From the NCBI GenBank assembly GCA_021292105.1, contig CM037861.1, positions 52,044,920-52,108,919 of the forward strand: DNA of 64,000 nt, read 5' to 3'. Origin of the DNA: Anadara kagoshimensis (Eukaryota; Mollusca; Bivalvia; Arcoida; Arcidae). The stretch's first letter is position 1, and the number at the start of each line of letters is the position of its first letter. This document shows, in pieces, positions 9,235 to 55,400 of the stretch. Position numbers and translations under genes: made by a program. The notes under the pieces were generated by a model that saw only the letters and a program-made list of their open reading frames with translations, ran no database searches and was not told where the DNA came from.

Positions 9235-12200
9235 ATGGCGGACGAAGGGGATGTTGATGTGGAAGAGAATAGAGAAGTTAAAAGCGCCGTGAAGCCATCT
9301 AGACCAACCAGAAAAGCTAATAAGTCTGCTACTTTAAAACAGATTATCCTGAAAAATGAAAAGAATGCACTTGTTCGAAGGGTATGCATCTGGACATTAC
9401 AAATTTTACCGCCTTCTGTCAAGTTTTTCTGATATTTTACAAATCATCTATTTGATACTTATGTTAGACATAAGATTCAAATATAAACGTCTCTTGTATT
9501 TATTTAAGTGTACCTAATATTTTTTTGAAATTATAAACAATTTTTTAACACTTATGGGCCTAGACCGACAAGAGGAAAAATAAATGAGTCATAGTAGACT
9601 CGTATTATTTGTTACATTTTAGTATTTTTACTGCATTTTTAGAACATGCTAAGATGTAAATATTTAACAGATTTTTCAATAAAAGCAGTTAAGATTACTG
9701 ATTTATTTACCTGTCCAAATCAAAACGTTGCCAAATGTCATGTTTTTTGGTTCAACAGTTGTTTCATATGTAACAGGAAAGGGAAAAAATGCAATGGCCA
9801 AAGCGGAACTTGAATCCAGGACCTTCCCAGTACTAGCGGAATGCTCTACCCACTGAGCTACCCAGCCACCTATCGAGTCTGGCCGGCCACATTCCTCGCT
9901 TCCTTTTTTTGATTCAACTACCTTGAATAGAAACAACCAGGTTCCATCACCCTGGGACCTTGCTGTTAGTTGGCCACTTCCCAGGGTCAGGACGAGCCCC
10001 CAAATGTAACAGGAAAGGGAAAAAGACAGGGGCCAAACTAGCACCATCCCAATACTAGCGGAACGCTGTACCCACTGAGCTACCGTCCACCCATCTAGTC
10101 TGGCGCGTCGCACGTATTGCCTTTTGTCACAGTATTGTGCAACAAAATGTATATTGGGCGGTTGTGTGCAATGGTAAAAAATTTGACAAAAAATGGTAGT
10201 GTCTTTAAATTTTAATGTGGCAGAAAAATTAACTATTTTCATATATATATATGGGACTATTCTGATCTGTGCCATGGCAAAAATGAATAATATTGGATTA
10301 TGAAATGTGCTTAAAAGATTCCCTCTGAAGCAGTTTAGTAAATCCAATAATTTTTTTTCATTTATCTTACTGAACAGGTATCTAACATTTTACGGAAAGC
10401 CCATGGAGAGAGAACAAAGGAAGACGTAGATGTATTGACATCATCTCCCGAACTGGCTGACAGATTAAAGAAACAAGCCATAAAAAGAGATGCTGTTAAA
10501 TTACGAACACAAGAGGTAAAATTTATGTTGCTAACATAATGAAGAAATGGTTGACACATGACCAAATGACAACTTATAGTTTAGATTTTACCATCTAAGA
10601 GCTCTTCTGTGATATTGTTTTCTAGGTCACGTGGTGACTGTCACTAAAATTAGATTTTTAGACTGCCAGATCAGGGCTCCAAGTAGGATTTGGTTTTCAC
10701 TAGCCTTCTGGCTACCATGTTTTATTTTTACTAGCCAAGGCCAAAATTTACTAGCCAGGGTTAAATATTTTGGTCGCCAAAACAAAAGTTCCCCGTGATC
10801 ATGCAATGATACAAAAAAGCTGAATTTGTAAAACTTTTAATTCAAATTGAAAGCATAATAAAATTTGACAAATAACTGTGTGCCAGCGGAAGTCGCATAT
10901 CATCACTGTCATCAAGATCCAGATCATAACAAAGTCTTCTGGCCATTCTTTGTAGGCCACCTTCATTTTTGTTGACAACAATTGCGCATTCTATACATAC
11001 AACCGAGAAAATTCATTACACCATTTTGCTAAAAACTTTGGCTCGCTTGATGCGGCAGTGGGCATTTGTTGTTCATTATCGGCAACACATTTTGATTTCG
11101 GAATGGATGGTGTGCCGAAACTGAATGAGGACGATTTCCCTTATGTCCTGCTGGCTCGTTTGGCCATGTTGTTTTCTATAGCAATGTGCAATCCGTTGTA
11201 CGTTTGTATATTAGCAAGGATTATCATAAGTTACAAGCGTTTGTGTGACCTGCATAACACAGACGGGGTTCCTGTGTATATGAGCAGGGGCTATAAACAA
11301 ACTGTATACAACACTAGCAGCCGAGGTGTACCAAATTACATTGTTTACATGATCATCTTGTGGCTAAAAACGATGTTTACATGATCATCTCCTGGTTATA
11401 AAACAATCTCTCTGTATTTATTGATCGCCGTTTGGCGAGTGCATCAGAAATTTACTAGCCATATCTGATTTTTAGTTGCATATGCGAGTAATTTACTCGC
11501 TACTTGGAGCCCTGCAGATGATAACTTGCGTTAGAATTGACCAGTTCCATCAACATTTCCTGCATCAATAGTATATGAAGAGTTCTTAAGTGGGATTGCA
11601 TTTTGGATAAAAAAGTCAATTACATAGGCCGCTATTGCTAAATATTTACAATATGACTGTACCTGTCTTTAAAGAAACCTACAGAAGCAATTGTATTGCA
11701 ATTCCCATGAAAGACAATTTGGGTCATGACAATTGATGTGTATAATTTTTCCCGCAATATTACGTCATGTCCTACACGGGGTCACATGGTCATATCATGC
11801 GCCAACCTCGCATAGCTAAACATTATATCTTACAATGACACATGAGCAGGTATGGAAGAAATAGCACCAAGGATTAAAACAAATCAAAATATTTATTAAA
11901 AGAAAGAATTGTAAACATAAGAAATGACATTTCTGCTCATAGTATTTCAAGGGGTAATGAAAGATGTGTGGTGCATGCCGAATTCAAAATCAAGGGCTTT
12001 GCCCTTCATTGAATTTGGCATGCGTCACACTATTTTCCTGCAATATTATGTCATGTCCTACACTGGGTCACATGGTCATGTCATACGCCAACCTCGCACA
12101 GCTTAAAATTATATCTCACTTGAGCAGGTATGGAAGAAATAGCGCCAAGGATTAAAACAAATCAAAATGTTTATTAAAAGAAAGAATTATAAACATAAGA

Positions 12201-30494: not shown

Positions 30495-30910
30495 CAACGA
30501 ACTGCTGAAGCAAGAATATTGCAAGCCTGGGCTTATCAAGGGCCTCAGGTTGTACAAATGAACTGCTGAAGCAAGAATATTGCGAGGGCTTATCAAGGGC
30601 CTCAGATTGTACAAATGAACTGCTGAAGCAAGACTATTGCAAGCCTGGGCTTATCAAGGACCTCAGATTGTACAAATGAACTGCTGAAGCAAGACTATTG
30701 CAAGCCTGGGCTTATGAAGGGCCTCAGGTTGTACAAATGAACTGCTGAAGCAAGAGTATCGCGAGCCTGGGCTTATCAAGGGCCACAGGTTGTACAAATG
30801 AACTGCTGAAGCAAGAATATTGCAAGCCTGGGCTTATGAAGGGCCTCAGGTTGTACAAATGAACTGCTGAAGCAAGAATATTGCGAGCCTGGGCTTATCA
30901 AGGGCCTCAA
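30495..30910. repeat. Minisatellite, 61-bp unit, 7 copies
   Basis: Unit begins gaactgctgaagcaaga, continues with gcctgggcttatcaag and ends ggttgtacaaat. Copies differ by a few bases, and one lacks 4 bp (near 30582). No ORF runs through it. Confidence 0.93.
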
Positions 30911-31011
30911 AAGATTTAATGAACGTCACCATAGCATTGATAAGTATGATGTTTATATATCCAAAATAACCATGGATATGTTTGACGTCCTATAGTTTCC
31001 TTTATTCTCAA

Positions 31012-31265
31012 TTTTGATTACATTTGTGGCGGGTGTAGTCAGTTCAAAAGGAGATGCTTACTCTTTCGGATCACCCGACCCCACTTTTCTGGTGGAATTT
31101 TGATTACATTTGTGGCGGGTGTAGTTAGTTCAAAAGGAGATGCTTACTGTTTCGAATCACCCGACCCCACTTTTCTGGTGGAATTTTGATTACATTTGTG
31201 GCGGGTGTAGTCAGTTCAAAAGGAGATGCTTACTCTTTCGAATCACCCGACCCCACTTTTCTGGT
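31012..31265. repeat. Tandem repeat, about 85-bp unit, 3 copies
   Basis: Unit runs from ttttgattacatttgtgg through ggagatgcttac to ccccacttttctggtgg, starting at 31012, 31097 and 31182. The unit is itself a piece of the dispersed family also found at 54010, 57930, 59790 and 63090. Confidence 0.9.
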
Positions 31266-32760
31266 GAACACTATTAAAAATTGTAAACCCTGTATGTATG
31301 AATCTAATACAGATGAACCTGCCATAAAGGCCACCTCTATATTAGGGTCACCTAGTTTTAAAAGGCAGTACAGTTTTATCCCAAATTTCTCTTTATTCGT
31401 GTTATTTGAACCTCTATATAAGGGTCATCTGCCCATAAAGGTCAGATTTATTGTTTCACTTGGATGACCTTTTTAGACTGGTGTGACTGTATATTTTAAT
31501 TGGATTTGTGTCAACTCATGCCCTCCATCATGCATAAATAAAAATACCTAAAATGATAGACATATTGAAAAATAAAACAATTTGTAGCTGCCATATTTGT
31601 AGCCTGCCTTGGAACACACAGTGATTATATACTCTATCTTATAGTGGTTTCAGATAAACTATTTTCTGCATTAAGACATATTCAGTCAAACCTGTCTATA
31701 AAGGCCACCAATTAAATTGACATTTATATGCAGGTGGCAGTTATATACAGGTTCAAATACTGAGAAACATTGAATAAATTTTACTGGCCTTTAAAAGCAG
31801 ATGGCTTTTAAGGCATATTTGACTATTTGGCTCACTGTATGCTTATTCTAGACCAGTTTTGTTCATTCTCTTTTACTGAACAGAAAAATTTCAGATTTTT
31901 AGTATTTCAGCTAATCAGGGATATTTATTAAATCATGCAATTCCATATTTTTATTAACATTTTCTTACATGTATGCAAACTTGATGTTTGAATAAATTTG
32001 TATATTGAAGTGACAGATTTTTTTCAGTATTGTTTTTTATGCCATAAATGTATGGACATTCAATAGAAAATATGTTTATTACGCCACATGAGCCAATGGC
32101 TCAAGGTGACCATAGTGATTGTTGTTTGGCTGGGGGCATGCAGTGTAAAAAAAATTAAGCATTTACAACTTCTTCCCCAGAAACAGTAAGCCAGTGGTAG
32201 TAAAACTTTATATATATGTTTCTTTGGGCAATGATCTTTCATGTTTGAGAAATTTGTTGACCTTGAACCACATTCAAGGTCACATTCACCTAAAGTAGCA
32301 AAACCTTTAAACATCTCATTATGAACCAAGATGCCTATGAGCTTGAAACTTCATTTATAGCATCAATACTTGGATCTCTACCAAGTTGCTAAGCTGGTTG
32401 ACCTTTATCTATATTCAAGGTCACAGTGAACTTTAAAACATCTTCTTGTCATGAACCTAAACGCCTAGGAGCTTGAAACTTATTATATCGCATTAGGACC
32501 TTAAGTTCTACCAAGTTTGCATAGCTTATTGACCTTGATCTCAGGTGACGGTTAATTATTGTGCCTCTTGTTTTGTTAAAGGTAGAGTTTATCAATATCT
32601 ATTTACAGATAACTTAAACTTGATTTGAAGTGAATAGTAAAATCAATAAGTGAACAAGCAAATTCTGTGAATTAGGAATCCCGCCAGCAGGTTCTTCTTT
32701 GTGATTTGCAATATGTTCAAAGCCAATAACTCAAGGAAAATGAGCGCAAACCGATTAAGA
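31266..32760. repeat. Segmental duplication, copy B, without the LINE
   Basis: It aligns with 25138-29400 as described for copy A. It begins exactly where the third unit of the 85-bp tandem repeat breaks off. The empty LINE target reads aaaggtagagtttatcaata near 32579. No gene seen. Confidence 0.85.
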
Positions 32761-35045: not shown

Positions 35046-38000
35046 ATGGCGAGTCCAAAGCAGCCTGAAGCAACACACACGGAGAAAAAGTTCAGCATTA
35101 TTGGTGGATTGCAGTCCGTATTGGTAAGAACAGTATTAGTTGTGCATAGCTTGCTGACAACATGGAGGGCTGCAGACATCATGAAAAACGATATCTACTG
35201 GTGTATCGGGCTGGTTAACATTCTGTTGATTATAGAAGGACTTTATACTTTAAGGTTCCGAAAAGGACAAGAAGGAAAATGGTAAGTGTAACACATGTAA
35301 TTGTACTTCAGATCAGTATTGTCACTTCTAAATGACAGAACTCTTTATCAAAGTCTTGACCAGTACTCCATTCTGGGACAAATGGACTCAACATCCACTT
35401 CAACAAATACTCAATATTTTGCTTTCAAATCTTTTTGAAAAATTGCTATTGTTTATTGAATAAAAGACATAAATAATTTAAATAATCCCCGAGCACAATG
35501 TGAGAGTAAAGGCAAACAACATTGACCCGTCTACTTGACCTTTCAATAGTGATATTGGCATCGTAGATTCAACCAATACATGGCGTTAGGATTCGTAGGT
35601 TATATATACACAATGCAAGAACGTATAGGTCATTGGCCTGTCTGCTTGACCTTTAATTGTGGATCGGTTTATTTATGTGTAGGAAACTCAGGTGTCCATT
35701 TCGTCTACTATATCATGATTGATACTTTATATAGTAGGCACGTCCACTGTGTTTGTATTAACTTGAATCCTAACTCTGCCCATGTGTTGGGTGGACCCTC
35801 CTAAATGGATGTCCCTAATGAAACATCAAACGGACAGGTCAGTGTTGTTTAACTATAACCTAAATTGAGTTTATATTTCTTTACTAGCAATAACCACTAA
35901 ACAACCAGTTCTGCATATATATAACAGAACATCTTACTAGTTGCGGTATAACTATTATCGTTTAAATATTGTCAATATTGTTCCTTTTCAGGTTTTGTCC
36001 GTGTTTTCTATTGTATCTATGCAGTACTTTACCATCTGTCTGGTTCCTAGAGGTAGACCGTTTGGACAGGCACGATAGCACTGTGGCAGATAATAATTTA
36101 ACTGCAATATTTTGTCTGTTTCAGGTTTTGTCCGTGTTTTCTATTGTACCTATGCAGTACTTTACCATCTGTCTGGTTCCTAGAGGTAGACCGTTTGGAC
36201 AGGCACGATAGCACTGTGGCAGATAATAATTTAACTGCAATATTTTGTCTGTTTCAGGTTTTGTCCGTGTTTTCTATTGTATCTATGCAGTACTTTACCG
36301 TCTGTCTGGTTCCTAGAGGTAGACCGTTTGGACAGATACGACAACACTGTGACGGATAATAATTTAACTGCAATATTTTTTTCTGTTTCAGGTTTTGTCC
36401 GTGTTTTCTATTGTATCTATGCAGTACTTTACCGTCTATATGGTTTCTAGAAGTGGATCGTTTGGACAGTGGCAGATAATAATTTAACTGCAATATTTTT
36501 GTCTGTTTCAGGTTTTGTCTGTGTTTTCTATTGAACCTATGCAGTACTTTACCGCCTATATGGTTTCTAGAGGTGGACCGTTTGGACAGTGACAGATACG
36601 ATAACACTGTGACGGATGATAATTTAACTGCAATATTTTGTCTGTTTCAGGTTTTGTCCGTGTTTTCTATTGTATCTATGCAGTACTTTACCGTCTGTCT
36701 GGTTCCTAGAGGTGGACCGTTTCGACAGTGACCGATAATAATTTAACTGCAATATTTTTTTCTGTTTCAGGTTTTGTCCGTGTTTTCTATTGTATCTATG
36801 CAGTACTTTACCGTCTATATGGTTTCTAGAAGTTGACCGTTTGGACAGATACGATAGCACTATGGCGAATAACAATTTAACTGCAATTCAAGAAGAGACT
36901 TTATCAACAATACAAGGGGTTAGTATCCTCTGTTATATATACCAAAACTCCTCTTTTTGTATATAACGACCTACTTTGATTTTGACTGACAAACTGCATT
37001 ATAATACACATAAGTATCAAATAAAAACAGACATACTATTCTATGTCCAAATCACAATCCCAAAGCAAAGCAACACATTTGCAAATTAAGTAAAAACACA
37101 TCCAGCTAGCTACACCCGCCAGGTGTGTTATCAAAATGAGAAAAAAGGCACATGGAAATATGGGGCTTCAATTATATCCTTGGTAATTTTTGATTCAGAG
37201 ACATAACAATTGTCAACAATATTGTGATGACGGCTATATAACTTTTTGAAACCCGTGATAAGTCTATGCTTGCAATATTAAGCAAACAGCTTGGGCCGTT
37301 GTTTCAAGTTCCTAAAGGGGGAACAAGCTCTACCATAGCGTATTAATTGTGAAACAAATACGTTGTACATGTACATCATAAGCAGGTATGCTGCATAAAA
37401 AAGAAAAGTTGGTCAATGCCGTTAGGTGAATTCAAGTTCCAAATCCCGTGAACATGACATCTTCATTAATGTATAATGTCTTTTCATTATGGAGGTGAAT
37501 CGTTTTTATATTTTAGATAACAATACCAATAGCCCTTACAGCAGACACGTGGATACAACTTCTGGAACAATCAATGATGTTTTTTCTAATAATTGGAAGG
37601 TGGTTACTTCCACGTGGTGATCTTACAAGAAATGAACTCTCCCAGTTATTGTTTGTTTACCTTGGTACCGGATCTGACATTTTGGAACTCTTCATCGTTT
37701 TTGAGGAATCGGAAGTTCGTCAAGACCGGATGTTATCATATATTGTGCTCATTATTTGGTCTGTAAGTTTACTGCAGTTCACCTTCGTGATTACAGCGAC
37801 TAAATCGTCACGAAGACCACGCGTTTTTCTCACCAACACTAATGACGTTATTTTAGCCGAACCTGAAAAGAAAAGGAACTCGGTACTTAGGAATAACAGT
37901 TGTTTAATGTCAATGTTTGCTACTGAGGTTTGGGGACTGATTTTATCCACCGTTATCATAGACATCCCGTTTTTATGCATTAGATTGTACATTTTAATCG

Positions 38001-40560: not shown

Positions 40561-40592
40561 GAAATTGCATATTATACCAGTTTTAATTTTGC

Positions 40593-40638
40593 AGCACTAG
40601 AGGGTTGTTTCGGAATACAATTCCGCATCAGTAGTGTT
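40593..40638 (-). ncRNA. Hammerhead ribozyme motif, decayed copy
   Basis: Stem II (GGAAT-TGT-ATTCC) is perfect and GAA is present on the minus strand. The core reads CTGATGC instead of CTGATGA, and stem III (ACAA/CCCT) no longer pairs. The flanking aaaattaaaactggtata is conserved with the other copies. Probably inactive. Confidence 0.6.
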
Positions 40639-41444
40639 TGAATTAATGCTGAATAATCATGAATTTATTTGAACGATTGGAAACCGTTATTGTACCTCCC
40701 AAGTACATTTTTGTCCTTAAATTACACCACACTTACATTTCGCCAAGTCAGTACCCGTTCAAAAAATCGTGAGTTTTATAATCAGTTGTCCCAAAATTAT
40801 CTTGTTTACTTGTTTGTTTTGCCGTGTTCTCAGTTGTTTTGTTCAATGTCAAGTACGTATCTGATCTTAGCGTTCATCTTCCTCTATGACGCATGGCCAG
40901 TTCAATTGACGGTCGTTATAAATATCACGGTTGTCAGCACTTCTTATGTTTATATAAACACTGGTGCAGATTTATAAGAGTTATGATCGGTAAAACACAA
41001 GACGTCTTTTTAATCCGAGAGATAGGTGTATCACGAACAACAAATAAAGGCAAAAGGGGATTTTATGGGACTTAGATATTTAAACTTCCTAAAGTGTTCA
41101 TGTTAACTTTTTCGGATGTTAAGTCGTTGATATTCAACTCATGTCAGATAAAGTGACATATTTATTTGAACCTACATGGCTTTTTTAAACTATTTTAGTC
41201 AATCTTAAAATGAACACTTGTCTTCCCATTAAAACTGATTTCCCTTGTTCTAGAAATTATGAACCTATTGGTAAAGGTGCTAACAATATACGAGTGACAC
41301 AGTTGACAATGTGCCACCTTCATTTGTACGTCGCAATAAGAAAACAAAAACCAAATAAACTAAAATGGCAAAATACATCCGGGTCTGGTTGTTCAAATCT
41401 CCTTTTACTTAACTAAATGGTTAGTCAAAATACAAATTGTTATT

Positions 41445-41640
41445 AAATCAAAAACAATAATATTACCAATCCATGTCCAAAACACAATCCAAAAGCAAAG
41501 CAAAAACTGATAGTTTACGTTAAACACGTAAACTTCTACAGGGATCTAAGTTCAGGTGCTCCCTAAAGGTAAGCACCTTTTGTTAAGTTAGCTACACCCG
41601 TTACGATCACGCGTGAAATCAAAATTTTGAATGAAAACAA
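41445..41640 (-). repeat. Copy of dispersed repeat family D (minus orientation)
   Basis: Contains ccaatccatgtccaaaacac, aaagcaaagcaaaaac, ggtgctccctaaaggtaag, tagctacacccg and gtgaaatcaaaatttt in family order. Confidence 0.75.
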
Positions 41641-42264
41641 ATTAAAAATATTTCCTATTAAATTGCAGGTTTGACTAGCTGTTTCTATTTGATAATAACA
41701 ATGGTGTCTATTTATTTTTATACTTAACTCTAAAAAGTCTATTTCATGAAATACAAATCTTGGCTTCCCCACGTGATTAAGAAAACAGAACAACCAAGGT
41801 CCTAATCAATACGCAAAACTTAAAACAACTGTTTAAGACCAAGATGCATAATAAATGGACAATGATACTTGTCCCTTTAATAACTATCATAAAACATCTA
41901 TACAAAAACGCATGTCTGAAATAGTTGAATATAATATATCACAGTTAATGGAAAATTTAAATTTTACGACGTTTAAGAGCAAACTCAATTTAAAATCTGC
42001 GTGTCATGCCCCTTGTTTCATTTTATGAACTTGAAAAACACACTATACCTCTTGAAAAGAATAAAACTCAATGACATTTTTTTAAAATTTTAAAAAACAT
42101 TTCCAAAGTATACGTTATATACAAAACCTGTTCTTCTTGGCATATTCAATATTAATTTAGCATTAAGACATATAAAAAACTTTTGAACTTTGCACACGGA
42201 TACTGGACTCCAAAATGTTAAAAACGCATTCCATTTTTTGCAAGCTTTGTATTTCTAACCCAGG

Positions 42265-42495
42265 TCCCAGTTTTGCAATCATTTCTAAACGATGATTTTC
42301 CTTTACTTAAATTCAGCAAATCTTGGCAATCTTTTTTGGAATTAAGACAATTGTTTTGACAAAAATATCCAAATTAAAAGCTTAAGTGATCTTGAATAAG
42401 TTACTATATAGTAATATCTTAACAATTAATAAAATTATTAAGATTTCAAACTTGCCAGATTAGAGTTAAGGAAAATCTTGGTTAAGGAATGATTG
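42265..42495. mobile_element. MITE-like inverted repeat
   Basis: The left end (tttgcaatcatttct, then gattttcctttact) is the approximate inverse of the right end (agttaaggaaaatctt, then aaggaatgattgtac). The right end also occurs near 23915. Ends are imperfect and no target duplication was fixed. Confidence 0.45.
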
Positions 42496-42514
42496 TACAT
42501 TTAGTTCTATAAAT

Positions 42515-42830
42515 AATAGCTTCCGATATCTCTGCTGGTGGCTGGTGCCCCGAGGATATCAAAAACTCAGTAGGCAATAATTTCGTATTATTGTCAGAAA
42601 TATACTATAATTGTCTAACTTTCCTGCAAGTTAAAATTTGAAATTTCTTAAAAACAGGTATACTCCCTCATGCAAAGTATTTCCTTAGCTTAATGTGGTA
42701 AAATATATTTTGGTCCGTTGGGTAGCTTTTCAACATCTTCAAAATAATTTTGGTCCAAGCACTACTGATGAGGGATTGTATTCCGAAACGGCCGTCAAGT
42801 GCTGTAAAATTAAAACTGGTATAATATGTA
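42515..42830 (+). mobile_element. Retrozyme-like monomer with one hammerhead
   Basis: The segment aligns, inverted, with the 326-bp monomer at 1735-2086: shared strings include ttgtcagaaatatacta, gtatactccctcatgc and aaagtatttcctta. The ribozyme lies at its right end. No second hammerhead is visible about 326 bp to the left, so this is a single unit or a truncated element. Confidence 0.65.
42746..42811 (+). ncRNA. Hammerhead ribozyme, type I, best-preserved copy
   Basis: Order on the plus strand: outer stem I AATTTT (42746-42751), internal loop, inner stem I AGCACTA (42758-42764), core CTGATGA (42765-42771), stem II GGGAT-TGT-ATTCC, core GAA (42785-42787), stem III ACGG/CCGT (42788-42795), cleavage C 42796, stem I return AAGTGCT with one mismatch next to the core, and outer return AAAATT (42806-42811). 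All invariant hammerhead core nucleotides are present. Stem III is a loop-less 4-bp palindrome, as in hammerheads known from Penelope-like elements and retrozymes, where activity may need a dimer. Cleavage has not been tested. Confidence 0.82.
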
Positions 42831-42954
42831 ATTTCTATAGAAACTGAACGCTCATTCCCAATATTGCCATCAGATGGAAGGTTATTCTTATTACAAAACT
42901 TACGTAATAATATCAATGGGGATGAATGTCTACAACTGTCCATTGAAATTAGAT

Positions 42955-43100
42955 CGGTACATAAGATATATAAAAACAACATACCAATCCATGTCGAAAC
43001 AACAATCCCAAAGCAAAGTAAAAACTTTGAAACTGGCAAATAAAGATAAACACGTGAATAGTCCACCTGTAAGACTGTTTGAATTTCTAATGAATTAGTT
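42955..43100 (-). repeat. Partial copy of dispersed repeat family D
   Basis: Contains ataccaatccatgtcgaaac, caatcccaaagcaaagtaaa and aacacgtgaa in family order, without the acacccgcca part. Confidence 0.6.
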
Positions 43101-43476
43101 TGTCAAAATTTTATTTATATCTTTATTTACCTATATGTTTGTAAATTTCAAGATAAACATTTGTCGAAGTAGACCTTGAATTGAACATTCCTTTTCTTCA
43201 TAGAAACAAGTGCGTTTGTACTGGTGAGAAATATGATACATTTGTTCCTCGCAGGAAGTTTATAATACATAAGTATTGCATTTACATCGATATGATATAT
43301 TATACTCGAATTTAATATTTTATTGGACAGACATAAACTAGCACTAACGATAAGACTGTTTGAATAGTATTATGTCACTTTGTAGTATATTTAAGTCTCA
43401 GGTAACCCTGATTTGCAGTCATTGGTTCCTTGTCTCTCAACCACGTCGGTAAGAATTTTAAACTTCAGAACTAACC

Positions 43477-46400
43477 ATGAGTTCTGAGATGAAGTACAGT
43501 TTCCAGAATGGACAAACACATACGTTTTCAGTTGTTGATTATGTGTTGTTTGCCTTGATGCTGGTTGTTTCTGCATCAATAGGATTATTCTATGCAATCA
43601 AGGATCGCAGACGACAGAACACCAAGGATTTTCTGATGGCGGGGGGAAACATGCACGCGTTTCCGGTGGCTCTGTCGTTACTTGCTAGTTTTATGTCAGC
43701 TATTACTTTACTTGGGACACCAGCAGAAATGTACAACTATACAACCATGTACTGGTGGATCGGATTGTCATACTTTTTTGTTGTGTTTGGTGCAGCACAT
43801 ATCTTCCTTCCAGTGTTCTATAGACTCAAAGTGACAAGTGCTTACGAGGTAGGTAAGAATTACAGTTGAACCTGCATTACAGGCAATGTCTCTATATAAG
43901 GACAACTTGATTTCAAAGTTCAGAAACATTTTATTTCAATTGCTGTATATTCATGTTATTTTAACCTCTATACAAGAGCATCTGTCCATAAAGGTCATTT
44001 GTACTGGTTCCCTTGAGTGATCTTTATGGACAAGTTTGGCTGTGCTACTTAACCTGTTGTTATTCTGCAACCCTAGACTGTCGTTTCGGAATAGGAATAA
44101 AATTCATACTTTGACGCTCGGACCAAAATTGTAGACATCGATATATTTTTTAACATGCTGAAATATGACAAATAGAACGAACAAATTTTATTTCACCAAA
44201 TCCACCTAAGAATATATCTTATTAGCTTAACTATTTTGGCATGAACTTAACTGCCAATAACTTTTTGGATCTTAAAAACAAACATTTATTAAATATTGAT
44301 GCTGACAGTCCTGTCATGTCATGGGGAACAGTAGTACCGAGAAACCACTGAAATGGACCTTTTTGTATTTACAAGAGGCGTTTATTTATCGTCTTTTTCG
44401 CCAAGTAAACCTGCTTTTCGACAAGAATTGATTTTATATGTTCAACCAAATGAGGTATCTTAACCTTGAGGTTTTGTAAGTCAGAATTGTCAAACTGAAT
44501 GGGTTCAAGATAAATGTATTTAAATGTATACAATGAATAATGTTTTGGTTAATCTACGCAATGTTTTCTAAACAAACCTCTGTAAGTTATTGTAATACAG
44601 TTATACCTCCTACATTATACCACCACGTATTGTACACATTTACCATGAAAATGTTGTATTAAGTTTTTTTTATATATTGTTCCACATTAATTTTAGATTC
44701 CTATAGGATCAATGGAACACTCACTCTCTTGCATAAATAACTTACTGACTATCAGGGGCGTAGCCAGGCGTACGTTTGTACGCAAAAACGTCCACATCGT
44801 TTTCGCAAAAAAAAAAGAGAAGAGAGAGAGAGAGAATATAATATATTTCTTATACCAAACCGTTGGTCTTCACCACTATATTAATTGAACTCCCATTTTA
44901 ACTTGACTTTCTCAATTATTGAGTGTGTTGTTTTCGTAGTGCTTATGCCATACAACATCAGATCCCATTGTACCTCGTCTTCAGGTTTTAGAATGAACCA
45001 GTCCTCAAAAGAACGACAAAAACTACCACAACATAGCATAAAATTATAAGAAAAAATCTGATAAATAGCGCCCTGGAGGGCCGAAAATTCGCATCAGGGC
45101 GGCCCCCAAAGCCCCTGCCCTCTTTAGGCGTCCACATCATAAACACCCCAGCTACGCCCCTGACTATGTAGTTTACATAGTTTATAAGGTTGTTGAATAC
45201 TAAGAGTTTTCCATATTTATCCAGTTTAATTTTAGGACAGGACAATGTATTCAACTTTGTTATCTTCTATCTCAATTTTGTAGTCTGTTTCTCCACTGTG
45301 TGTAGAGCATTTTTGACAATCGTTTTCATAGGTTTTTTTTTCTATTGCAATTTTTCCTTCTAAAAAGCGTGAATGTATTTGTTTTATTTTTACTTAATCT
45401 TACGCACACGCTGCTGTAAATTAAATAACAGTTCTTTTCGTGACATACAGTGCAGGTCTTTAGAAAGTTTAACAATGATTTAACAAAAAGGAGTCGGAAG
45501 TCGGCTGTCGAATAGCCGAAATATTAGCTAATGGCCCAGAAAAGCTGCAGAGAGATAGAGCGCAGCTGCCGAAGAAGTTGTCGAGATATAGGTGACAAGA
45601 TGGTGTGCCGATTTGTCACTTATTTGTTAGCTTAATGTTTAACTTTCTACAGGTCTGTTATATGTAGATGCAGTATGTACACAGTCGTTTAGAATATATT
45701 ACCTACAAGTAGAAGATAAGTATAGTGAATAGACTCATAACATGTTAATATGACACGTTTCTTCTTACGTCAATATTTACAATATTGCAGATAATATCCA
45801 TATACAAGCATATTTTAATTTCTAAAGAACATACCACTTGAAACCAAGTTTATTTACCCCCCCCCCCATTTAAAAGACGAACGCCGAAGTGCTAATCTCA
45901 AAACATAATTTATCAAGATAACTTTTAATATCAACATTGATGGGATATGGTAAAATATCCAAACAAATAAAATTCTAAAATTGTCATATCCTCCGTCACT
46001 CGATCCTTCAATTTTTACTTCTAGTAAGTCAACACTGAAAAGCTATTAAGAAAGAGCAATGGACCACCGCCAAGTCAAATGAATTTTTAAATATTCTTAA
46101 AATAAAATTTAAAAGAATTTTGAAGATTTTGAAAACATTTACAGGAATTTAGAGCAACCGTCATAGCGAATCCGTGTTTAAACAATTCTCTTTTTATTTT
46201 GGAATTCTTCGTCTTTTGTTTTTTCACTTGCTGACATGAGTAATGAAAACTACAATTTATAATAAAAACAAGCATACTTCCTGTAATCCCACGTCCGAAT
46301 CACAAACCTAAAGAAAGTAAAAACTTTGAAACTGTTAAACACATAAACTTCCAACAGGAAAGTGAAGCTGGGTGCTTCGGAAGTGTAAACACTTCCTGTT

Positions 46401-49400: not shown

Positions 49401-52400
49401 CGTTTCACGAACATTCCTATAGTTAAGACGGTTTTCGTGAAACGGACCTAAGAGAATATGTTGTTCCCGAGTGATTGTTATGATGGAAGCTTATAAGACA
49501 CGTATTTGATTATTTTGTACTATAGGGTGGAATGAAAGCAGTGTTGTGGACTGATACATTTCAAGTTGGTATGATGTTTGCTGGTTTATTAGCCGTTCTA
49601 ATAAGAGGTAGTATAGAAATTGGTGGTTTTGGAAATGCGTGGGAAAAAGCGTATGACAGTGGCCGTGTTGTGTTTGACGAGTAAGTGAAAGTCAACAAGT
49701 TTTTTTTAAAATTATTTTGCAAACAACATTGACCTGTCCACTTGACCTTTAAGTGAAATACATTTAATGGACCAGGACATGCGTGTATAAGGAACATATT
49801 TGTTTATTTCATCTATATGCCCTGTTTATGTGTTATCTGACAAATCCTACCACTACCCATGTAATGAATATTCCTAATGTTGTTTGCCTATACCTTGCAA
49901 TCTCGAGTTTCATTTTTGCATCAGTAGTTTTAATTTATGTTTATCTTGCTGATTTCTCAGTTAGTACTTTGTAAAAGTTAAGTATGTGTTTATCAGATTC
50001 AGATTACAAATAACTTTACCTCATTATGTTCAGTGGTTACAACATACAGATCTAGACCCGATAATATTCGCAACTATTTAGGCATTTAATGAATCTTGTT
50101 AAATTCTTAGTTTTAAAAAGTTATTAGTCTATTAGCCGTTATAAGTGGTATTTAAAGTGATACAAAATGTTCTGGACATTTTTTGATACCATGATACTTA
50201 AGGTAGTTCCATACCATAGTGACGTCGTCGTTTTGTGCGTACGGTCGAAATGTCTGATTTGACGTCTTTTTTATCTATGACGTCACGAATGTGTGTTCTT
50301 CGGCGCCTACAGAATTATGGCGGGAACGCTGAACATTACGCTATTATCTGATTATTCAGTAGAATAATTTTCTGCATTCACAAAAGATTAGAATTCACAA
50401 TATCAATTCTTTGCCCTATTTTTAAGAAGAAAATGTATATTGTACATAACGGAAATTAGGTAGATCTACACTTTTGAGAGTACTATTCTAAATAATTGAA
50501 AGATTTGAGTACATTGTTTAAATTTTGAAGACGGTATTTCAAATGCCGGTTTATGTTTGTTTTTTCGGTGATTTTAAATACAAATAGTAGGATACAAACT
50601 GACGATACTGTATAATAATTGTTCTAGGTGTCCAATTTTAGCAGTTTGACTATTGACTATGCTCTTGTATTTGCGTTTCATCCAGCGGCCTAGAATCAAG
50701 AACGCTTCATCAATGTATACGAATCCCCTTTCCACTTTAACTGAGCTGTGTTGGGTAACGGTTGCTATATGGGTTTCTATGGGTGACAGACCATATGATA
50801 TTTCAATTAGTTTTTTTTTCTTTTTGCACAACCAAATAGCTCACAATCAGTGTTTTTGTTTATTTGCTAATACCAAACGAAAAACATTGAGTTCATAATA
50901 GTATACTAGGACATTATTAGAAGCTTCTTACGTAAGGAATGATGATTTTTTCTTGTTTCAGGATTTTGATGCAATTTTATGAAAAAAGTAGCTTGACGAC
51001 CCCCTATTTTTTGTTTCCGAAAATCAAACTTATATATTCATGGGCAATATATGTGAAAATCAGGGGTCGTATTCGACTTAGTTTTTTTAAAATCTACAAA
51101 TTAACGAAAGGGTGTTACTTTTAGTTTTCCGAAAATTTAATGTTCTCTCTTGATAGGTGGCGCTGTAGAAAAATACCACGTGACCGGAAGTAAAATTCCA
51201 TTGGTACAATTAATCTCCATGACATAATGGTTAATTTAAATGCAAGACACTTTTGGTTTCTAAGCATGACAAAAAAATATTAAAGCTTATTTATTGATAA
51301 CAGTAGTTAAAATTTGATCATTTATGTCGTGAAAATGGCCACCAGGTGGCGCTTCAGAACTTCTTAAGGAAGTCGAATACCAGCCCTGAAATTTCGGCAT
51401 GTTGAATGGTTTATGCCCATGTACAACATATCAAAATTTCAATATGTGTTTTCAGGCGATTTGTAAAGTATGGAACTACCTTAAATGCCATTTTACATGT
51501 TAAAATGTGGAATAAAATTGGTTTATTGTGTATTTGTTATAGTTTCAGCCCAGATCCCATTGTAAGACACAGTGTATGGTCACTTGTTATAGGAGGTACG
51601 TTTACCTGGGTAGCTATATATGGTGTAAATCAAGCACAAGTACAGAGATGTTGTACATGTCCAACATTGAAGAAGGCACAGATGTAAGTAGTATTGTATA
51701 CACATACATACATATACGTCGAATATAGTGTTAGTGTTTTTGCTTCCTACTGCGTTTTAGTCTTCGTTGCAGTTTATTAATTGAAACTGATAAATCTATA
51801 AAGCTAAAACGTACCTAATAATAATCAATTAGCCTACACTCTGCTCTGTTTACAAGGCTATGATTTGTCTGGTAGCTTACAATGTAATTTGATGTCCATT
51901 TTAGAACAACTAGCCTTAATGATTCAAATCAATTGAAGATTGTAAATTCCTAGTTAAGTTTATTTTGTTTCAGTGCAATGTTGTTACACTTCCCAGAAAT
52001 ATGCCTTATACTTTATGGGCTCATATAATATGTGTTTTATTGTGTTCCAATACATTGTGGTTAATCTGCCAAGAACTGTGTCTAATACTTTATGACTTTA
52101 TATAATATATGTCATAATTTCTTTTAGTGCAATGTGGTTAAACTTCCCGGGCCTATGTCTGATACTGTATCTCAGTTGTCTTATTGGAATTGTTGTGTAT
52201 GGTTTGTACAGCCAATGTGATCCCTTCACATTTAAACTAGTACAAACATCCGATCAGGTATGTCTGTTTGTATGTTAAAAATATATTATGGAAACTTTCT
52301 GGATTTGATAGTTGTCAAAGTTACCTAGATCAAATCTAACAGACATGAAAATGCAAAAATATAGCTAATTCCATATTATACCAGTTTTAATTTTGCAGCA

Positions 52401-55400
52401 CTAGACGGCCGATTTGGAATGCAATTCCTCATCAGTAGTTCTGAAACCATTTTTTTTTAAATAAGATGAACTTAACAATAACCAGAGCAATGATGAAGGC
52501 GTCACAACTAACGAATAATAAAACCATTAATTAATATAAAAATGCTTACCTTTGATTGACGCTGGATAATTAGTAAATAGTATCTAATGATGTGGAATAC
52601 AGTACAGACCTGTCCAAAGTTTAACACTAAGCTAACAAATAAATGCTGAAGCGGCAGCTCACCTTGATCCCACATTATCTGTATCTCGACAGCTGTTCAG
52701 CAACTCGACAGGCAGCTTTTCGACCATTAGGTAACCATATCTGGGTCACTAAACAGCCAAACTTTCGACAGGACTGTACTGTATGTACTTATGCAAGGAA
52801 TCAACGATCAAACCACTTATGTTTTCTTAACATAATCTCAAACTGTGCAAGTAGAAATATTCTCTATACACTATTGCTTTAGAGTTTTGCGGTCGTTGGT
52901 CAGTCACAACTTTTTTACGTCATCATGGTACAGAAAACATTTACACTTGCAGTAAAAGAGATTGCCTAATGCCAAGTACATGTACTTGTGTTTTAGTTGC
53001 ATATTTCTTTCTCCAATCTTCAGTATTCCTTCTCTATTTTATTCTCTCCAAAAGTTAATATAAGATCCCTTAAACGTAGAAAAAATATTACCAAATTATG
53101 AAGAACAAATTTATCATGCCCGTTTCCCTATAATTAATAATATAAATAAAAGAAACGACTAACAATGAAACTATCTATATTGTGTTTCTTCCAGAGTCCT
53201 ATTCTCTATACAGATCACACATTTTTTATTTTCTTGATTTATGATTTTCAGTAATTCTATTATAAACATCTGCATACTATATTTCAGCTACTACCATTGT
53301 TTGTTATGGATGTTCTAGGATATTTGACCGGGTTTCCAGGGTTATTTGTGGCGTGTCTCTTTAGTGGTGCTCTCAGGTAAACGAACATTGCTTTTCAGTC
53401 ACGTTTACTGTCTTTCAGTCAAACTGTTGGAACAAATTTACTGTATTTCATTCGATCTGTTGGAACCATTTTTCCGAAGAATAATGTGTTTATTGAATTT
53501 ATCTTTGCTGTTATTGAATATGAAACAACAAGTATTACGGAAAACCACAAGAATAATAACAATCCACTCGGCAAACATCGTCACGGAATTGGGCAAGTTG
53601 TGACGAGTGAATATCAACCTACTCTTCATTTGAACTGTCTGTAATTTTTATGCACTGTAATACAGAAACTATTTCTAGAAATATAAATGATGCATTTACA
53701 TATTCGTTGCCATGTGTATTTTGCAAGTGACATCCATAGTTTATTACACTAACATCTTTAAAAAAATTTAAACGTTAGAATTCCAGTGTGCATGTAGGTG
53801 ATTCTATTGAGTATATTTGTATATTAAAGTATTAAAATTTGTTTTGTTTCGATGGATCATTTGTTTTTCTTTAGCGATATTATGGAGGGCATTATTAGCC
53901 TAAACTTATCAAGGCCCAAAAAAACTTTTGTTGCCATTGTTGATAAGTATGGTTTCTTTGTATCGTATTGATTCTTAATGTTTTTACATTTCCATTGTTC
54001 CTTTCATTCATAATTTTGATTACACACGTGCCATGTGTAGCTAGAAAGCACGAGGTACTTACGTACCATTTCGGTGCACCCGGCCTCACTTTACTTCGCG
54101 GAAGTTTACATGTGTATTTTGCTCAAGGATTGTAAATTGGACAAGGATAAGTATGTTTGTTTTTATGTAAACTAAAACCATATAAATGTTTATTTTAATT
54201 AGAAGTTTACATAGTTGAATCATTTGCATTGCAATTCATAACTGTTTCTTCCAATCATTAAATATCTGTTTGTATTTCAGCACTATATCTTCAGGGTTAA
54301 GTTCGTTGTCTGCCGTAGTTCTTACTGATGTCATCAAGGCTTACTTTATTAAGGATCTGTCTGAGGAGAGGGCAACTTTCATATCAAAGATCATAGGTAA
54401 TTCTTACAAAAAGAAGAAGTGTACGGGTAATGTATGTGTATGTTTTACATCACAAAGATGCTTACCCTTCCGGAGTACACGACCTCGCTTTCCTTGGTCT
54501 AAATTACCGCTAACAGATCACAGTTTCACTCGACATCTAGATTGAAATCTCACAGAAAGATGTTAATGGTAGTTAATCGCTTACCGATTGTCAGTAGTCT
54601 CCTGTGAGTATTCCGGTCTGCCTCTTCTACCATCTTGGAACTAACCGCCTCCATATAAGTGAAAAGTATTCGCCATGGCATTAACACAATTACTGTAAGT
54701 AAACTCCATCTCAATACCTAAGATATGACTGAAAATACGTGCAAAGAAGATAACACTGTAAAATAGTCAAGTTAATTCATCGGTAATGCAATACCAGAAT
54801 GAAGAACCTTTTACCTATATCGGTAAGGTATATCTCGAATTATATCTCAAAATGGGCTGCCTATAACAATTAATTTATAAATTTTCAATATATCCATCGA
54901 GTTGGCTGTTGCTGTTTATGTCTCTGTAAGTTCATATAGTAGCAGAATAGCACAGTATTATTTGATTAAAATGTTTTGAATATTTTGTCTATTTTTAAAG
55001 TTTTGGTGTTTGGAGTAGCTTGTCTAGGATTAACATACATCGCATCATTATTAGGAGGTGTTCTACAGGTAACGTATCATTGTTTATATTATTGTTTTTA
55101 AACAACTTTAAACTCTTTTAAATATAAATTTCTAACCGATGGTTCAAACATTTTCTGTAAAAAGGTCTATAACCAGTATCAAAGGTTTAACTACAAGCAA
55201 TCTCTGCATCTTAATCTATCTGGGTTTTTAGTGTTCATGCAACCTTAACAAGGTTAGTGACTGGTTCACTAATTCCTACCGTTGTGGAGACATGGTTCCA
55301 AATTTAAGTTATATTGTGTCACTGGTTAATACATTGTTCAATATTTACGGTCAATATCCCTAATCCTAATCACAGTTCTCTTAAACTGCTCATTGCACTT

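Follow-up and report, generated by a model that had tools for sequence, protein, structure and literature searches.

A hammerhead-bearing repeat of Anadara kagoshimensis with non-LTR retrozyme anatomy and a common 3' end that suggests a Penelope-type enzyme

Introduction

A stretch of 64,000 nucleotides from the bivalve Anadara kagoshimensis (hereafter the window, located on contig C5) carries a hammerhead motif inside a dispersed repeat, which raises the question of what kind of element this repeat is and how its copies return to DNA. Animal retrozymes form abundant RNA circles, and the enzyme by which these circles are turned back into DNA is unproven; Penelope-like elements are called a strong candidate in PMC7229834. 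We analyzed the motif, the repeat unit and the insertion ends in the window and in the genome (1.115 Gb, 36 contigs), together with the Penelope-like elements resident in the same genome.

Results

The motif at 42746–42811 on the forward strand contains CTGATGA (42765–42771), GAA (42785–42787), A15.1, U16.1 and C17 (42796) in the correct order, with three stems and the open end at stem I, as in type I hammerheads, although pair 1.1 is missing. This confirms the ordered invariant core claimed by the earlier note, and the outer helix proposed there can also form, as AATTTT (42746–42751) is able to pair with AAAATT (42806–42811); the bipartite stem I of fast hammerheads that the earlier note reads from it is a putative feature. 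The description of the hammerhead as complete holds for the core and is overstated for the whole, since the return strand of stem I is AAGTGCT and pair 1.1 is consequently A.A; among 110 aligned copies of the family, the partner at this position is T in 108, and pair 1.1 is present in the majority form. Stem II includes one G.U pair. Stem III cannot stand as the ACGG/CCGT given in the earlier note, which would be loopless; in cis, only AC/GT is possible, under a GGCC loop, and the 8-base palindrome can pair fully only between two hammerheads. The copy is worn, and it may be slow or dead.

A strict descriptor (CTGANGA, GAAA, TH, and stems I, II and III of at least 5, 3 and 2, respectively), with a mismatch permitted at 1.1 that was chosen when this copy was already known, had a single match when both strands of the window were scanned, namely this site, and none in 120 first-order Markov windows of 64 kb each. 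The looser pattern CTGATGA-N8-20-GAAAC matched twice in the window against 0.09 expected, and one of 100 shuffles also reached two matches. When the covariance-model check suggested by the earlier note was performed, RF00163 aligned to the site over its full length (1–45 of 45) at 23.2 bits, with an E-value of 6e-4 that refers to a search of 101 bases only; the score falls below the gathering cut-off of 34 bits, which is a database threshold and not a chemical criterion. Rfam scans of the whole window returned no RF00163 match, and RF00163 did not match at 1700–2180, where two further hammerheads (A1 and A2) are located. The genome-wide RF00163 search gave no matches, but likewise none in its 14 controls, and was thus uninformative. 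One hammerhead pattern was searched in viral contigs and had no match.

Folding was calculated with a model that omits magnesium and core contacts. For the majority form of the hammerhead, represented by a real copy (L012:1491–1556), the unconstrained best fold of two strands was the dimeric hammerhead, at -36.7 kcal/mol. As a monomer, the same sequence reached -7.4 kcal/mol in the hammerhead fold against -13.4 kcal/mol in its best fold, a difference of 6; the corresponding values were -5.9 and -14.5 kcal/mol (8.6 above) for window copy B, which contains the 42746 site, and +0.5 and -11.5 kcal/mol (12 above) for A1. The best two-strand fold of copies B and A1 was not the dimeric hammerhead, and the circular fold had a z value of -0.97 (100 shuffles). 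The compensatory changes anticipated by the earlier note amounted to one double change, in the outer helix of A1, against 2.1 in shuffles, in a set of 70 of the 80 distinct copies whose mean identity of 94% leaves such a comparison with little power; the ten sequences left out comprised nine that were not 66 nt long and one that was shifted.

Five clear copies of the repeat are present in the window, and the sixth one counted by the earlier note (44049–44136, reverse strand; match E 1.5e-6) is decayed, with its core lost. Copy B (42523–42831, forward strand) is nearly one unit, covering unit positions 15–325 at 96% to the unit of array L011, and ends with a 35-nt tail (42797–42831) that runs from the cleavage site to the common 3' end described below. 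The remaining clear copies are on the reverse strand. Copy A (1725–2136) consists of a partial unit (240–325) followed by a full unit (1–325, 81%). Its hammerhead A1 (2071–2136) has an intact core with T as H17 at 2086, a mismatch in stem II and an outer helix with one compensatory change, and its hammerhead A2 (1745–1810) has GAA changed to GAT and its H17 at 1760, so that the two H17 positions are 326 nt apart. Copies C (40565–40640) and D (52369–52442) are short 3' pieces (250–325 and 252–325, respectively); the former is broken inside the hammerhead and has the core CTGATGC (hammerhead region 40585–40650), and the latter has GAA changed to AAA (hammerhead region 52389–52454). Overall, the core is kept in two of the five clear copies, namely the 42746 site and A1, and carries substitutions in A2, C and D.

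Several other features were observed in the window and the sampled loci. Window positions 40882–44381 match C5:51349000–51352500 (locus L009) over 3,501 bases in inverted orientation at 99.86%, about 0.7 Mb apart, and this pair either arose by recent inverted duplication or represents a haplotype that was retained; further flank-identical pairs are L013/L014, L063/L065 and L066/L069. Tandem arrays occupy 30499–30909 (61 bp), 31010–31266 (86 bp) and 35986–36887 (~133 bp), and a tRNA-like match of 41.8 bits at 9795–9867 (reverse strand) is perhaps a tRNA or the head of a SINE.

Genome-wide, a pattern of the core plus stem III had 5,290 exact matches (2,718 and 2,572), and the reversed control had none; the family must be larger than this number because exact core matches alone were counted. 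Loci were sampled in two ways. The first set comprises 38 loci that resemble copy B, selected among 40 that were scored out of 2,197 candidates, and one of these loci (L009) duplicates the window; the second set comprises 20 regions at the top of the core-pattern list, which lie on contig C1. The core counts, 47 and 62 of 81, mix array units and duplicated loci and are therefore not independent. In the five-unit array L011, the unit is 325 nt long, with the hammerhead at 240–305 and the predicted cut after 290; neighboring units are nearly identical and the period is constant. A second form of ~339 nt carries a 14-nt insertion. Units of 325–339 bp, with 35% GC and one type I hammerhead each, occur both singly and in tandem, and Pol III box patterns had no match. 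Across the 110 aligned copies, the last 86 nt (hammerhead and tail) show ~1–12% variation per site, with a few sites higher, and the stretch directly upstream exists in two forms.

These features agree with those of animal non-LTR retrozymes, which have a unit of 150–450 bp with a hammerhead in each, occur in tandem and dispersed, and contain less than 50% GC. LTRs, a primer binding site and a polypurine tract would also be expected to be lacking in such an element. An open reading frame with reverse transcriptase (RT) and GIY-YIG domains, by which Penelope-like elements are recognized, is absent from the unit because 325–339 nt is too short for it, and the unit is apparently non-coding. By anatomy, the repeat is an abundant non-LTR retrozyme with putative cleavage and circles; a type I hammerhead in an abundant dispersed family, as described in the earlier note, and its placement with the animal retrozymes are supported by both unit anatomy and genome counts.

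The two ends of the insertions differ. The 3' end falls at unit positions 322–325, ~35 nt beyond the cleavage site, in 60 of 73 hammerhead-bearing chains and elsewhere in 13. By set, such ends were found in 18 of 26 core-selected, 38 of 43 body-selected and 4 of 4 window chains, the core-selected set being the fairer one because the body-selected query contained the 3' end; six of the eight other ends in the core-selected set are at 307–321 and may be worn. The 5' starts occupy all 13 bins of 25 nt, mostly at 226–275 and 26–100, a spread shaped by the choice of hammerhead-bearing chains, and some starts at 238–241 lie where the 14-nt insertion that marks the 339-nt form causes a break. More than 335 nt is covered by 28 of the 73 chains, and insertions extend up to five units. 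Four loci with repeated flanks (L009, L014, L063 and L066) were omitted from the junction, 3'-end and 5'-start counts, and the latter two counts also omit chains at locus edges or without a hammerhead.

Of 61 junctions, 56 have T directly after the 3' end and 46 have TT, and neither a poly-A nor a microsatellite tail was found at the listed junctions. The 5' starts do not accumulate where the hammerhead would cut. Tail counts with a 5' limit of 291, 288 and 285 were 2,815, 2,481 and 1,899, respectively, and a steep loss at the cut is absent; the loss over the cut (291 to 288) was 12% against ~8% expected, which leaves a minor class of 35-nt insertions possible, and the next three bases lost 23%. 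Since an enzyme starting at 325 on linear RNA cut at 290 would copy only 35 nt, the usual template would be circular or uncut. In the 19 sampled chromosome-scale loci, the 5' ends of insertions often lie a short way upstream of an additional unit; circular and uncut templates both allow this.

The target-site duplications of animal retrozymes, when present, exceed 4 bp; the direct repeats found here are few and weak: six were scored at 61 junction pairs, one of 30 bp and five of 5–7 bp. The 30-bp repeat, at L058, was rejected as its flank is a tandem repeat, and the 5–7 bp matches at L055, L037, L041, L030 and L010 were judged too weak, with chances of 0.004–0.04 each over 61 tests. A 7-bp duplication considered for copy B was also rejected, as the element starts further upstream. 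Longer-range flank repeats in direct orientation exceeded the 95% null in 6 of 60 cases against ~3 expected, which was likewise too weak.

In the same genome, a GIY-YIG search gave at least 50 matches (150 scored of 248 candidates). Loci L080 and L082 contain RT and GIY-YIG domains (Pfam), and in L080, L081 and L082 a hammerhead-like motif of putative activity lies downstream, with the palindrome ACATGT and, if G12 is kept, one additional unpaired C ahead of stem II. Penelope-like elements with a hammerhead-like motif, whose co-occurrence is expected of retrozymes, are thus present. Their end lies at query positions 203–211 in 39 of 39 non-query copies (40 scored of 220 candidates), some of which are close pairs and not independent; the putative cut is at query position 140, and the fixed end is ~68 nt beyond it. 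The tails of the retrozyme and the Penelope-like elements are alike in a TAATT-like end only.

In L081 and L082, the RT-GIY-YIG frame is followed by a 248-aa open reading frame, at ~1772 of the element strand, in which the stretch CNICGKSY is zinc-finger-like. The Penelope-like copies are often inverted pairs a few kb apart, for example, C15:59520667/59523173 and C3:1658447/1660515.

Discussion

By description, the closest known systems are animal non-LTR retrozymes, especially those of the mussel Mytilus galloprovincialis (PMC7229834), which share with the present repeat a type I hammerhead whose stem III has two pairs and a tetraloop, small repeats in tandem, a low GC content and the co-residence of Penelope-like elements. 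The mussel has ~5000 copies, and 5,290 exact cores were counted here; the mussel unit measures ~350–390 bp, against 325–339 bp in the present repeat. Plant LTR retrozymes are also small hammerhead elements thought to pass through RNA circles but differ in having type III hammerheads, LTRs of ~350 bp and 4-bp duplications (PMC7761336 and PMC7229834). Penelope-like elements (L080–L082 here, and PMC11167929) resemble the retrozyme in the palindromic stem III of the hammerhead-like motif, the fixed downstream end, the AT-rich junctions and the tandem or paired copies; unlike the short retrozyme unit, they code for RT and GIY-YIG, and they differ in stem II, in tail sequences and in the spacing of the end, which lies 68 nt away as compared with 35 nt in the retrozyme.

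The 3'-end pattern of the retrozyme, together with the fixed end in 39 of 39 Penelope-like copies, suggests that a Penelope-type enzyme initiates at an internal site of circular or multimeric RNA. A precedent is the enzyme of a lizard Penelope-like element, which initiates reverse transcription at a fixed internal position and cuts preferentially at ATT (PMC11167929). We infer transcription, cleavage, circles and the identity of the enzyme, as follows. Transcripts of tandem copies would be cut by their hammerheads, one of type I per unit, probably aided by pairing of the stem III palindrome between two hammerheads, and the monomers would be joined into circles. An RT from another element, most likely the resident Penelope-like element, would then begin synthesis ~35 nt beyond the cleavage site, always at the same internal position, and would travel backward around the template over differing lengths, so that insertions would share their 3' end and vary at the 5' end. 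To this proposal as a whole, a non-LTR retrozyme with hammerhead-cut circles and a Penelope-type RT, we assign a probability of roughly 0.55. The more specific reading, that the footprint was left by an internally initiating Penelope-type enzyme that reverse-transcribes retrozyme circles in a rolling-circle, target-primed manner, is tentative and has somewhat less than an even chance. Several results speak against the retrozyme proposal as a whole: the 13 of 73 ends that lie elsewhere, covariation not above that of shuffles, the disfavored monomer fold, the best two-strand folds of copies B and A1, the few weak direct repeats, the tails of retrozyme and Penelope-like elements that differ beyond the TAATT-like end, and the in vitro insertion of lizard hammerhead mutants.

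The asymmetry of the ends has also to be weighed against other routes of spread. The constant-period arrays and nearly identical neighbors in L011 would be expected of a satellite that spreads through exchange at the DNA level and carries the hammerhead as a passenger; however, dispersed single or short copies with one 3' end and spread 5' starts are not products of exchange, and this account is very improbable. A second route is mobilization by a LINE that recognizes the tail. Insertions driven by LINEs typically share a 3' end and are truncated on the 5' side, and the last 86 nt are conserved between unit subfamilies in which the upstream part differs; but the listed junctions are without poly-A or microsatellite tails, the direct repeats are few and weak, and it is the resident Penelope-like element that has the layout of a hammerhead followed by a fixed end. 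We consider a LINE a candidate mobilizer of low probability.

A further alternative concerns the template, which might be an uncleaved multimeric transcript and not a circle, with the hammerhead acting late or being unneeded for insertion. The lizard Penelope-like element inserts in vitro from unprocessed RNA, and its hammerhead mutants still insert (PMC11167929); the 28 multi-unit insertions and tail counts that do not drop steeply across the cut are in keeping with such a template and fit circles equally. Known animal retrozymes, however, accumulate as circles (PMC7229834), and we regard an uncut template as unlikely.

A search of literature titles and abstract openings found none that describes this common 3' end of retrozymes, although the observation may already be in print. 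The useful part of this study is the end pattern, the window copy itself being ordinary: the common 3' end and the similar layout of the Penelope-like elements make the question of the mobilizer testable. If true, rolling-circle reverse transcription by a Penelope-type enzyme would name the mobilizer of animal retrozymes.
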